From: Candidatus Ornithomonoglobus merdipullorum
Lineage (GTDB): Bacteria > Bacillota > Clostridia > UBA1381
Assembly: GCA_018714695.1 (NCBI GenBank)
Contig: DVNB01000014.1
Span: 1 to 34,863 of the forward strand
Length of the DNA: 34,863 bases
Reading direction: 5' to 3'
Both the position numbers and the translations under genes were made by a program. Positions 6,262 to 11,704 of the stretch are shown piece by piece (the stretch's first letter is position 1; each line of letters begins with the position of its first letter). The notes beneath the pieces were generated by a model. That model was not told the DNA's origin. It saw only the letters and a program-made list of their open reading frames with translations, and did no database searches.

Positions 6262-6414
6262 AAGGGACTGTAGCAAAACTAATAAATATGCATTTTTATG
6301 CAGCTACGGCGCAAAACAGCCTCCCCTGAAAGGGGAGGGGAACCGCCGAACGGCGGTGGAGGGGTTGTCGCTATGCATAATAATTGATAAATATGCATTT
6401 TGCTACAGCCCCTT
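6262..6414. repeat. MITE-like nested palindromic repeat
   Basis: About 153 bp between the stops of two convergent genes. The ends are inverted repeats: 6262-6278 pairs with 6398-6414 with one mismatch (AAGGGACTGTAGCAAAA). Inside are CCTCCCCT-GAA-AGGGGAGG (6320-6338) and ACCGCCG-AA-CGGCGGT (6342-6357), and a repeated AAATATGCATTTT near each end. It has no coding capacity. It resembles small palindromic repeats that I recall from gut Clostridia genomes. In RNA either strand would fold strongly, so it may also terminate both flanking genes. Confidence 0.75.
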
Positions 6415-6419
6415 GATGG

Positions 6420-7751
6420 CTATGCGCGGTTTATTATACGCCGGAACAGCACGGCGGATGCGGCTGCCGTTATAAATTCCGTTGCCCATATAGCATGCCA
6501 TACGCCGTCAGCGCCTGTTATTCGGCTAAGCACGAAAGCCAGAGGGATGATAACGGCAACATAGCGCAGTACAGATATCACAAGTGACGGTATGCCGCGT
6601 CCGAGCCCTTCTAGAGCGCCTGATGCGACTACAGAGACCGATGATACCATAAAGCCGATGCTTATGAGCCTCAGGGCATGAGATCCCGTGGAAATTGTTG
6701 ACGGATTCGCGGTGAACAAACTGATGAGCGTATCCGGGAATATGAGGCAGACAGCTGTGCCGGCAGCCATGATGGATGCCGCGATAGCAAGCGATACGTA
6801 AAATATCCGTTTTACGCGCCCTAGCTCACCCGCTCCGTGATTGTAACCGATGAGAGGTCTCATGCCCTGAACGACACCGTTCGCGGTTAGGTATATAAAT
6901 GTCTGCAGCTTATAGTATATACCCAGCACAAGCACGTAAGACTGTGAAAATGCTGCCAGGATGCCGTTGAGCGCGGAAACGAGCACCGAAGGGAGCAGCA
7001 TGTTGAGCGATGCCGGGATGCCTACCGCGTACAGGCGTGAATATATGCTTCGTGAAGCTGCTATATTTTTTATACTTGTCTTTACAGGTATAGGACGTAT
7101 GAAATATACCGCTATATAAAAGAGCAGCGTAAGCGTTTGCCCTATGCCGGTGGCGATAGCCGCGCCTTCTATGCCGAGCGCCGGGAAGGGACCGATCCCG
7201 AAGATGAGTATCGGATCAAGGATTATGTTTGCGACGCACCCGATCATCATTCCTGCCATGGAGACCGTCATTCTGCCGACGGATTGAAATATCTTCTCAT
7301 ACGCCACGCCGATGTTGATAACTACGGAAAAAAGCATGGCAATATTGGCGTAGCGAAGCCCCAGCGCTATTACATCCTCAGAGTCGGTGAAAAAGTCCAG
7401 AAATGTTGGAAGAGCAGCAATGCATACGATAGTAAGGATGATCCCATGAACAATGCTCATCAGAACACCGGCAGAAACGGACGAGTCAGCCGCGTCTTTC
7501 CTGCCCTCGCCCAGAAAGAACGCTGCGGCGGTGCTTATCCCTATACCGAAGCCGACGGATACCGCGTTCACAAGATTTTGTACCGGATATACGAGAGAGA
7601 GCGCGGTCATAGCATCCTCGCTTATTTTTGCGACGAAGAAGCTGTCTATTATGTTGTAAAGCGAGTTAACGAGCATCGATACGACCATCGGCAGCGACAT
7701 CCTGACAACGAGCCCGAGTACGGGTCTTTCCTTCATATAAGTCTGATCCAT
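6420..7751 (-). CDS. MATE-family efflux transporter
   Basis: A 443-aa polytopic protein with about 12 hydrophobic segments, duplicated as in the MATE/MOP exporter family. The N-terminal PVLGLVVRMSLPMVVSMLVNSLYNIIDSFFVA and the later GVVQGMRPLIGYNHGAGELGRVKRIF are hallmark MatE motifs. It likely exports cationic drugs or metabolites using a Na+ or H+ gradient; the substrate cannot be predicted. The start ATG at 7751 has GGAGGG at about 8 nt. An in-frame ATG at 7847 would add 32 residues, but it has no ribosome binding site and its codons run through a terminator hairpin, so it is rejected. The gene has its own consensus promoter, diverging from nadA, and a leader with attenuator architecture. 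Confidence 0.93.
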   Translation of the reverse strand: MDQTYMKERPVLGLVVRMSLPMVVSMLVNSLYNIIDSFFVAKISEDAMTALSLVYPVQNLVNAVSVGFGIGISTAAAFFLGEGRKDAADSSVSAGVLMSIVHGIILTIVCIAALPTFLDFFTDSEDVIALGLRYANIAMLFSVVINIGVAYEKIFQSVGRMTVSMAGMMIGCVANIILDPILIFGIGPFPALGIEGAAIATGIGQTLTLLFYIAVYFIRPIPVKTSIKNIAASRSIYSRLYAVGIPASLNMLLPSVLVSALNGILAAFSQSYVLVLGIYYKLQTFIYLTANGVVQGMRPLIGYNHGAGELGRVKRIFYVSLAIAASIMAAGTAVCLIFPDTLISLFTANPSTISTGSHALRLISIGFMVSSVSVVASGALEGLGRGIPSLVISVLRYVAVIIPLAFVLSRITGADGVWHAIWATEFITAAASAVLFRRIINRA

Positions 7752-7770
7752 TTTTTGTTTCCCTCCTGTG

Positions 7771-7812
7771 ATGCGGCATAAAAACAGCCGCACGGTCCAA
7801 ACAGCCGTGCGG
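7771..7812 (-). terminator. Intrinsic terminator inside the MATE leader (probable attenuator)
   Basis: GCCGCACGG (7788-7796) pairs perfectly with CCGTGCGGC (7805-7813) around an 8-nt loop. On the minus strand the stem is followed by TGTTTTTA. It lies between the MATE promoter and the MATE ribosome binding site, so it must be read through for expression. Upstream in the same leader are a second inverted repeat (CCATAT-CAT-ATATGG on the minus strand, 7848-7862) and an ATGCGG that could pair with CCGCAT past the terminator. Confidence 0.7.
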
Positions 7813-7886
7813 CGAAAAAGAGAATTGTTATCTGTAAAAATCCGCATCCATATATGATATGGTTTTAATTATTCGATTCGCTAAAT

Positions 7887-7915
7887 AATATACCATAAAA
7901 CGCTTTTGCTGTCAA
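7887..7915 (-). promoter_or_regulatory. Sigma-A promoter of the MATE gene
   Basis: On the minus strand: TTGACA (7915-7910), 17-nt spacer, TATATT (7892-7887), with an extended -10 TG. Predicted start near 7880 gives a leader of about 130 nt before the MATE start codon. Confidence 0.85.
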
Positions 7916-7946: not shown

Positions 7947-8006
7947 TTTACACAAACTTTACACGATCGATAAGAAATTATGATGTTTACACCGAAAAGT
8001 TTACAG
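7947..8006 (+). repeat. Direct repeats TTTACAC/TTTACAG upstream of nadA
   Basis: TTTACAC occurs at 7947-7953, 7958-7964 and 7986-7992, followed by TTTACAG at 8000-8006, which is also the left arm of the nadA operator. The first two are 11 bp apart, one helical turn. They could be auxiliary half-sites for the operon's repressor (inference). Confidence 0.5.
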
Positions 8007-8025
8007 GTGTCTTGACAGCTGTAAA
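8000..8025 (+). promoter_or_regulatory. Probable NiaR operator overlapping the nadA -35
   Basis: A 26-bp palindrome centred between 8012 and 8013: TTTACAGGTGTC, TT, GACAGCTGTAAA, with a single mismatched pair. The -35 hexamer lies within it, so a bound repressor would block RNA polymerase. The operon's fourth gene encodes a NiaR-type repressor, the natural candidate. Assignment rests on position and symmetry. Confidence 0.72.
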
Positions 8026-8040
8026 GTAAACCTGTATAAT
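8012..8040 (+). promoter_or_regulatory. Perfect consensus sigma-A promoter of the nad operon
   Basis: TTGACA (8012-8017), 17-nt spacer, TATAAT (8035-8040). Both hexamers match consensus exactly. Transcription should start near 8047, giving a leader of about 58 nt with a small GCCGGT/ACCGGT-type hairpin (8071-8089) before the ribosome binding site. Confidence 0.92.
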
Positions 8041-8104
8041 ATACGAAACGGGACGAAAAACGGATCAGAAGCCGGTGCAATGTACCGGTGATAAGGAGAA
8101 AATG

Positions 8105-9013
8105 ATGTCAGATACGATAAAAAGGATAAACGAACTAAAAAAGGAAAAAAACGCTGTTATATTTGCTCACTATTACTGCCCGGAGGAAACACAGGCCGCG
8201 GCCGATAATATAGGGGACTCATTCTATCTTGCGAGAGCCGCAAAGGAGACGGACGCGGATATCATAGTATTTGCCGGTGTGCGTTTTATGGGCGAGAGTG
8301 CAAAGATTCTGAATCCCGGAAAGACGGTACTGATGCCGGATATGAAGGCTGACTGCCCGATGGCTCACATGGCGTCGGCGGAGCGTATAGCTGAGGTGCG
8401 GCGCGAGCATCCCGGTATTGCTTTGGTGTGCTATGTGAATTCGACGGCGGAGCTGAAATGCGCAAGCGACGTGTGTGTTACCTCGTCAAATGCCGAAAAA
8501 ATAGTAAGAGCGCTCCCTAACAGGGAAATATATTTTATACCGGACAGGAATCTCGGTAAACACGTTGCGAAGGCGGTGCCGGAAAAGACATTTGTGTTTA
8601 ACGACGGATACTGTCCTATCCATCACGGCTTTTCTGAGGAAGAGCTTATCCGCCTCAGGGAGGAGCATCCGCGGGCTGAGGTCATGGCTCATCCCGAGAG
8701 CCGGGAGTGCATATTGAAACATGCAGGATACATAGGCTCCACGGCGGGGATAATAGACCGTGTTGAACACTCTGATGCGGATGAATTTATAATATTTACG
8801 GAAAAGGGGATCAATTACGCGCTAAAAAACGCCGCACCGGAAAAGAAATTCTTTTATCCCGGATGCGGCTGCGAATGCGCGGATATGAAGCTCAACACAC
8901 CTGAGGCAATACTTCATGTGCTTGAAACGGGTGAAAATGAGGTCATACTTGAGCCCGGGACTGCGGAGCGTGCGCTGGCACCGCTTGAAAGGATGCTCGA
9001 GCTCGGAAAGTGA
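8105..9013 (+). CDS. nadA: Quinolinate synthase NadA
   Basis: Condenses iminoaspartate with dihydroxyacetone phosphate to quinolinate, the second step of de novo NAD synthesis, using a [4Fe-4S] cluster. The three expected cluster cysteines are present at C84 (ADCPMA), C170 (GYCPIHH) and C254 (PGCGCEC). Other family motifs are AHYYCPEE, DSFYLAR, YVNSTAELK and PDRNLG. At 302 aa it is full length. AAGGAG at 8093-8098 sits 6 nt from ATG 8105 and 3 nt from the adjacent ATG 8102, so 8105 is preferred. It is first in nadA-nadB-nadC-niaR, 19 nt before nadB, and probably NiaR-repressed. Confidence 0.96.
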   Translation: MSDTIKRINELKKEKNAVIFAHYYCPEETQAAADNIGDSFYLARAAKETDADIIVFAGVRFMGESAKILNPGKTVLMPDMKADCPMAHMASAERIAEVRREHPGIALVCYVNSTAELKCASDVCVTSSNAEKIVRALPNREIYFIPDRNLGKHVAKAVPEKTFVFNDGYCPIHHGFSEEELIRLREEHPRAEVMAHPESRECILKHAGYIGSTAGIIDRVEHSDADEFIIFTEKGINYALKNAAPEKKFFYPGCGCECADMKLNTPEAILHVLETGENEVILEPGTAERALAPLERMLELGK

Positions 9014-11188: not shown

Positions 11189-11704
11189 TTGAATACTGCC
11201 GAAAGAGAGGACAGGATACTGGAGCGTATAAGAGAGAGCGGTGTGCCGGTTTCCGGCGGAACTCTTGCGCGTGAGCTCGGCGTCAGCCGACAGAGCATCG
11301 TGAAGGATATTTCAGCTTTAAAAGAGCGTGGGTATGAGATAATTGCTACAACTAAGGGGTATATGCTTCGTGTCCAGCCGAGGCCGGAGCGTGTTTTCAA
11401 GGTAGTGCATGCCGACGACGAGGTGAGACGGGAGCTTGAAACGATAGTCCGTACCGGAGGAGAGGTAAGAGATGTTTTCGTGTGGCATAAGATATACGGA
11501 CGGATAGAGGGCGCGCTGAACATAAAGACGCAGCAGGATATAAACGAGTATATCGAGAGTCTGGAAAACGGAAGATCCAGCCCGTTGAAGAAGGTAACGA
11601 ATGAATATCATTATCACACTGTAACGGCAGAAAGTGAGGAGGTCCTTGACCGGATAGGAGAGGCGCTTGACGAAATAGGATTTCTTGTGAAGGACGAGGA
11701 TTGA
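11189..11704 (+). CDS. niaR: Niacin-responsive transcriptional repressor NiaR (YrxA)
   Basis: A 171-aa regulator with an N-terminal HTH_11 winged helix (SGGTLARELGVSRQSIVKDISALKERGYEI, residues ~22-51) and a C-terminal 3H domain that binds nicotinate. Candidate metal/niacin ligands are H74, E82, H141 and H143, with spacing as in the structurally known family member. NiaR represses NAD synthesis and niacin uptake genes when niacin is plentiful. The start is TTG at 11189, 8 nt after GGAGGTG (11174-11180). As the last gene of the nad operon, 31 nt after nadC, it should repress its own promoter through the palindrome at 8000-8025. Confidence 0.93.
   Translation: MNTAEREDRILERIRESGVPVSGGTLARELGVSRQSIVKDISALKERGYEIIATTKGYMLRVQPRPERVFKVVHADDEVRRELETIVRTGGEVRDVFVWHKIYGRIEGALNIKTQQDINEYIESLENGRSSPLKKVTNEYHYHTVTAESEEVLDRIGEALDEIGFLVKDED

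Follow-up and report, generated by a model that had tools for sequence, protein, structure and literature searches.

A conserved leader RNA ahead of MATE exporter genes, probably a riboswitch-type transcription attenuator

The question raised by contig DVNB01000014.1 of Candidatus Ornithomonoglobus merdipullorum (assembly GCA_018714695.1) is whether the leader in front of one of its MATE family exporter genes controls the expression of that gene and, if so, to what it responds. The window, i.e. the whole stretch of DNA that was analyzed, comprises 34,863 nt; all coordinates are positions in this window, and the leader and its gene are on the minus strand. An initial annotation had described a consensus promoter, a leader of about 130 nt with a CCATAT/ATATGG hairpin, an intrinsic terminator, and a ribosome binding site (RBS), all of which are present (Table 1), and had interpreted them as a transcription attenuator whose leader can switch between folds, a reading that comparison with orthologues and folding bear out. 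We propose that the leader probably works as a transcription attenuator of the riboswitch type, switching the exporter ON, and that it is apparently undescribed.

A recurrent leader RNA linked to MATE genes

A contig scan of genomes yielded 80 loci related to this one, and a common core could be read from their leaders: AAAA, a spacer, GUGG-A-Y-UUUU, a hairpin, UUUU-Y-G-CCAC, and the remainder of the terminator. A covariance model (R2), built from 45 leaders in a MAFFT alignment (A2), recovers the element in 74 of 81 sources. Among the 7 sources without it, three end too soon upstream (the MATE match starts at base 5 in L032, 1811 in L057, and 312 in L074), and four (L016, L019, L043, and L077) carry a different, likewise conserved, terminator hairpin. 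The count set comprises 126 matches above 30 bits, of which 122 were parsed, giving 105 distinct elements; the parsing pattern itself demanded UUUU on both sides of the loop. These counts omit weak matches judged to be chance (L097-L100 at 24.9-30.3 bits and L169 at 30.4 bits), and four true or possible members (L083, L018, L164, and L166) fall outside the parsing pattern.

From 5' to 3', the element consists of an A-tract, an optional hairpin P0, the 5' strand of a stem P1 (GUGG/CCAC), a U-tract, a variable hairpin P2, a second U-tract, and the 3' strand of P1. In alignment A2, all 45 sequences keep the four core P1 pairs, with double changes at two of these pairs, and double changes occur at 4 of the 5 P2 pairs. 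Alignment A3 (63 distinct rows, fitted to the model) contains 47 double-change cells compared with 11.5 in shuffles, and the covariation score of this model-fitted alignment is 0.225, compared with at most 0.068 in slid controls. The loop L1 is 4-9 nt long in most elements; in a second subclass, which includes this locus, it houses P0, with the stem variants CCC/GGG, CCT/AGG, CCAT/ATGG, CCGC/GCGG, and CCTGTCCG/CGGACAGG. Because this stem varies while its pairing is kept, P0, the hairpin of the initial annotation, is a genuine part of the RNA. Covarying stems across the leaders of orthologous MATE genes, a check proposed beforehand, are thus found for P1, P2, and P0. The conserved bases are all located 5' of the terminator loop, which itself varies. 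Since the same element recurs with covariation in the leaders of orthologues, it is more than a product of chance; judged by these comparisons, the leader is a conserved structured RNA with an aptamer-like domain, located before functionally related genes.

The pyrimidines of the internal loop were also considered as a covarying pair. The combination AU-UUUU with UUUU-C occurs in 73 and AC-UUUU with UUUU-U in 23 of the 105 elements, the mixed combinations in 5 and 2 (Fisher p 5e-16). This association is confounded by kinship, since it comes down to 5 independent pairs on supported branches, which is not significant, and we rejected it as a real signal.

Among the listed open reading frames (ORFs), a MATE gene follows 122 of the 126 matches, either immediately or within an operon. 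The exceptions are L021, whose MATE gene was matched in the contig scan and missed by ORF picking; L146 and L164, where the locus ends soon after; and L120, where the element stands in front of an apparent truncated MATE remnant (1501-1800). Where the MATE gene is not first in line, the element lies about 0.9 to 2.5 kb upstream and heads the operon, and several element-headed operons start with nitroreductase, second MATE, and GNAT acetyltransferase genes. A near-identical cassette of the form element - nitroreductase - MATE - (GNAT) - MATE is found in many genera (e.g. L041, L060, L065, L080, and L170), and also in records labelled Treponema and Gastranaerophilales; this similarity across genera points to transfer and suggests that the element travelled with the MATE cassette to distant hosts. 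Across the ORFs flanking the element at 80 loci, MATE is the only general family, followed by ABC-F (10 loci) and nitroreductase (7 loci), and no regulator gene is recurrent.

Copies of the cassette are present in the genus of this locus as well, and the nitroreductase frame seems broken in some copies. A comparison of the nitroreductase-MATE cassette with plasmids gave no long match (4 records, each covering 2% of the query).

In a family sample apparently centred on Lachnospiraceae, 44 of 397 genomes carry the element, with 48 matches. It was found in 5 of 70 genomes of this locus's own family, in 5 of 391 of the class sample with more than 40 bits, and in 3 of 398 of the phylum sample, a figure that counts the genome of origin and one match judged to be chance. 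This genome encodes 13 MATE-like proteins versus a single copy of the element. The exact core pattern had no match in IMG/VR.

A strand common to P1 and the terminator

The 3' strand of P1 is part of the 5' arm of the terminator, so that the two structures are mutually exclusive. Read in the order P1 5' strand, terminator 5' arm, and terminator 3' arm, the three strands are GUGG/CCAC/GUGG in 87 of the 105 distinct elements, AUGG/CCAU/AUGG in 3, and GCGG/CCGC/GCGG in 2 (this locus and its nearest relative), the remainder using G-U pairs or mismatches. In L083, a by-eye reading gives GUGA/UCAC/GUGA. On a tree of the MATE proteins (98 rows), the P1 5' strand changes 2 times, the P1 3' strand 9 times, and the terminator 3' arm 12 times.

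When the leader of this locus was folded as it would emerge from the polymerase, P0, P1, and P2 were predicted for transcripts reaching as far as 7803, and the terminator for those extending to 7780. As long as the 3' arm is missing, P1 is part of the minimum-energy fold in 86 of 103 homologues; once that arm has been transcribed, the base of the terminator folds in 102 and P1 is retained in none. This folding series indicates that P1 can serve as an antiterminator, that termination is probably the default state, and that a signal should stabilize P1. The initial annotation had sought the alternative pairing elsewhere, between ATGCGG ahead of the terminator and CCGCAT behind it. This complementarity is real at this locus (7/7 for the 7-mer GATGCGG) but does not extend to the family, where it was found in 18 of 104 leaders versus 12.0 expected from shuffles. 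The partner of UGCGG (7846-7842) is not the distal CCGCAT but CCGCA (7812-7808) in the terminator 5' arm.

We propose that the transcript begins at about 7880 and that the nascent RNA would fold P0, P2, and P1 first, with P1 sequestering the 5' arm of the terminator. A small molecule would stabilize the P1 fold, probably at a core made up of the A-tract and the U-rich internal loop, allowing RNA polymerase to read through and the MATE gene to be expressed. Without the ligand, the longer terminator hairpin would capture the common arm and transcription would end near 7780. The linkage to MATE genes and their operons, together with the lack of a recurrent regulator gene and of support for a leader peptide (see below), points to the RNA itself as the sensor of a compound that these proteins handle. 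From this evidence we infer the direct action of a ligand on the RNA, the ON direction, and a tertiary fold. The element is almost exclusively linked to one kind of gene; its ligand is therefore expected among the substrates of the pump and is probably a compound that the pump exports.

Several points weigh against this reading. Two of the five P1 pairs never varied among the 45 leaders, P1 is short (4-5 pairs), and its outer pair is broken in 18 of 45. The predicted minimum-energy fold contains no P1 in 17 of the 103 homologues, and the antiterminator segment, taken by itself, has an ordinary folding energy (z -0.90). The ligand and its equation with the pump substrate are presumed, and a protein instead of a small molecule could stabilize P1.

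Related RNAs and rival explanations

The element was compared with known RNA families using the covariance models of Rfam 15 (4227 families) at the gathering threshold, a check also proposed with the initial annotation. The window gave 0 matches, and 18 homologous loci gave tRNAs only. For the leaders of this locus and of L048, lowering the requirement to E values up to 10 returned sub-threshold matches only, none of them meaningful. The literature searched contained no earlier description of the element; one may exist elsewhere.

Guanidine-IV (mepA/GGAM-1) RNAs resemble the element in several respects: they are reported to be leader RNAs with an intrinsic terminator that act as ON switches, and their targets include MATE and GNAT genes (PMC7736828, PMC9788692). 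Guanidine-IV and Gd4v RNAs are reported to form two hairpins whose loops pair in a pseudoknot, and the loop of the terminator hairpin contains essential conserved bases (PMC7736828, PMC9788692, PMC11611296). That loop is conserved and kisses the loop of the 5' hairpin, whereas here the core precedes the terminator and P1 uses the terminator 5' arm. The Gd4v motif, a guanidine-IV variant, is likewise a gut-enriched orphan attenuator associated with MATE and GNAT genes (PMC9788692), but its main target is reported to be a transaminase. Given the variable terminator loop, the element is not a member of guanidine-IV/Gd4v by the tested feature, despite similar attenuator workings. Separately, the alternative leader of L016, L019, L043, and L077 (two or three of them labelled Anaerostipes) forms a long terminator hairpin with an inner UGUUUCUGA...AACAG, about 40-260 nt before the MATE gene; this hairpin might be related to guanidine-IV/Gd4v RNAs.

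Other riboswitches offer partial parallels. Triple helices are described for guanidine-III (PMC5696562), SAM-V (PMC6061858), and SAM-II (PMC5352136); like these H-type pseudoknot riboswitches, the element has a 5' strand that could pair in a hairpin loop with a U-rich third strand, but here the P2 hairpin is inserted, the tertiary contact is hypothetical, and Rfam gives no match. The yjdF riboswitch, reported to sense a wide variety of azaaromatic compounds that contain nitrogen (PMC4793209), sets a precedent for drug-like ligands; it is a different RNA, tied to yjdF genes and not to MATE.

A more specific model of the core can be considered, although we regard it as unlikely. In this model, the 5' AAAA would dock into the symmetric loop A-Y-UUUU/UUUU-Y-G to form an ENE-like U•A-U triple helix, and the switch would be a broad sensor of triplex-stabilizing planar cationic compounds such as berberine, sanguinarine, and similar plant alkaloids; pump substrates would then be sensed by RNA and not by a repressor, and the switch would move with mobile MATE/nitroreductase/GNAT cassettes. 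ENE elements comprise a U-rich internal loop between two helices and a separate A-tract, and function in stability at 3' ends. The element shares the U-rich loop and the separate A-tract with ENE/MALAT1-type RNAs; unlike theirs, its A-tract is 5' and belongs to a bacterial attenuator. A symmetric loop with four U's on either side, facing four A's, makes the triple helix plausible. UUUU is present on both sides of the loop in 105 of 105 elements, as the parsing pattern required, and both U-tracts are also invariant in A2, whose leaders were initially chosen with a similar pattern. Being invariant, the A- and U-tract bases yield no covariation signal. MATE pumps are known to export planar cations. 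The MALAT1 triple helix has been described (PMC12609000), and triplex binders of the berberine, coralyne, and sanguinarine type are reported to stabilize such RNA (PMC12609000; PMC3362543).

Within the riboswitch-type attenuator that we favour, the signal would be a small molecule. Protein-dependent antitermination, in which an RNA-binding protein (LicT/SacY-like or cold-shock) stabilizes P1 and the U-rich loop, is an unlikely alternative that matches part of the evidence: protein-bound antiterminators are likewise short stems with internal loops overlapping a terminator, and single-strand-binding proteins would suit U-rich loops. No regulator family recurs beside the gene, however, and the element appears to have reached distant hosts with its MATE cassette. 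That the RNA senses a physical state or an ion (Mg2+, temperature, or polymerase speed), and no specific compound, seems less probable still. A short P1 and a possible triple helix would be expected to respond to Mg2+, but the near-exclusive tie to one exporter subfamily, with nitroreductase and GNAT, points to the export of xenobiotics or amines and not to ion homeostasis.

We consider it very unlikely that the element is a guanidine-IV riboswitch or its Gd4v variant: the gene classes and the terminator-based ON logic are reported to be alike (PMC7736828, PMC9788692), but the conserved bases are placed differently. In addition, sugE, the commonest gene behind guanidine-IV RNAs, did not turn up among the small number of genes looked at behind the element, where only MATE was systematically searched for. 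Control by a stalling ribosome, which the initial annotation had entertained, finds a candidate frame at this locus (ATGGATGCGGATTTTTACAGATAA, encoding MDADFYR). There is no ATG between the start site and the terminator in 45 of 104 leaders, a start codon with a Shine-Dalgarno-like stretch occurs in only 2 of 104, and the lengths of P2 and L1 vary outside multiples of three; in most leaders only a few bases separate the predicted start site from the A-tract, which leaves no space for an RBS. Leader-peptide attenuation is therefore highly improbable. Hardly any credence remains for an unregulated terminator that arose by chance. The folding z-scores of the single leader are only moderate, yet the element recurs with covariation in 105 distinct forms. 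Using 200 shuffled sequences as controls for the folding program, the segment 7880-7780 folds at -25.4 kcal/mol (z -2.29, 5 of 200 shuffles equally good), and the whole 148-nt leader does not stand out (z -1.19, equalled by 24 of 200 shuffles).

Layout of the locus and significance

The features of the locus are collected in Table 1. A promoter with at least 9 of 12 consensus matches is present at the equivalent site in 98 of 104 homologous leaders, and the spacing between the -10 box and the A-tract is 20 nt at this locus compared with a median of 9 nt in homologues. The terminator was absent from a pattern scan limited to loops of 8 nt, its actual loop being 9 nt, and was recovered by folding. 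For the MATE protein, queried as a translation started one codon upstream of 7751, the nearest solved structure by sequence is BH2163 (5c6o).

Table 1 Features of the MATE leader and gene in the window.
Feature	Position	Strand	Basis or remarks
Sigma-70-type promoter TTGACA-17-TATATT (TTGACA 7915-7910, TATATT 7892-7887)	7887-7915	-	11/12 consensus matches
Conserved A-tract AAAA, near transcript 5' end	7863-7866	-	AAAA in 99/105, AAA in 5/105 distinct elements
Hairpin P0, CCATAT 7862-7857/cat/ATATGG 7853-7848, within loop L1	7848-7862	-	Pairing kept despite stem variation
P1 5' strand UGCGG (putative antiterminator)	7842-7846	-	Fold and homologue comparison
U-rich internal loop, 5' side, A-U-UUUU	7836-7841	-	AUUUUU 76/105, ACUUUU 28/105, UUUUUU 1/105
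P2 hairpin, AGA/UCU at this locus	7821-7833	-	Variable and covarying among homologues
U-rich internal loop, 3' side, UUUU-C-G	7813-7818	-	UUUUCG 78/105, UUUUUG 25, UUUUAG 1, UUUUCA 1
P1 3' strand CCGCA, part of terminator 5' arm	7808-7812	-	Fold and comparison
Intrinsic terminator GCCGCACGG 7813-7805/CCGTGCGGC 7795-7787, then UGUUUUU 7786-7780	7780-7813	-	Folding
ATGCCGCATC, complementary to P1 5' strand at this locus	7770-7779	-	Complementarity not kept in family
RBS GGAGGG	7761-7766	-	Sequence
MATE family exporter coding sequence, 443 aa, start codon 7751	6420-7751	-	PF01554 and TIGR00797 above cut-off

Two neighbouring regions were also noted. Behind the MATE gene, 6262-6418 is a repeat with inverted ends GGGACTGTAGCAAAA...TTTTGCTACAGCCCC that matches its own genome 20 times, itself included. 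Six of these matches are further copies, near-full or partial, with 84-87% identity, and the inner portion (query 57-105) is also found alone; the repeat is a MITE (miniature inverted-repeat transposable element)-like element. On the other side, 7990-8040 holds the perfect TTGACA-17-TATAAT promoter of a divergent operon, overlapped by TTTACAGGTGTC/GACAGCTGTAAA repeats. We take this to be a nad-type operon, with a quinolinate synthase-like ORF (8075-9013) and the ORFs that follow it. A NiaR-like regulator ORF lies at 11189-11704, and the repeats are probably a NiaR operator.

In summary, if the riboswitch-type attenuator proposed here is correct, it would add an orphan riboswitch class, present in common gut Clostridia, that controls a family of multidrug-type exporters together with detoxifying enzymes. 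Its small size, its many natural variants, and read-through as an unambiguous read-out make the element directly testable. The identity of its ligand would reveal a chemical that these bacteria expel in the gut, as well as a substrate of this MATE subfamily.
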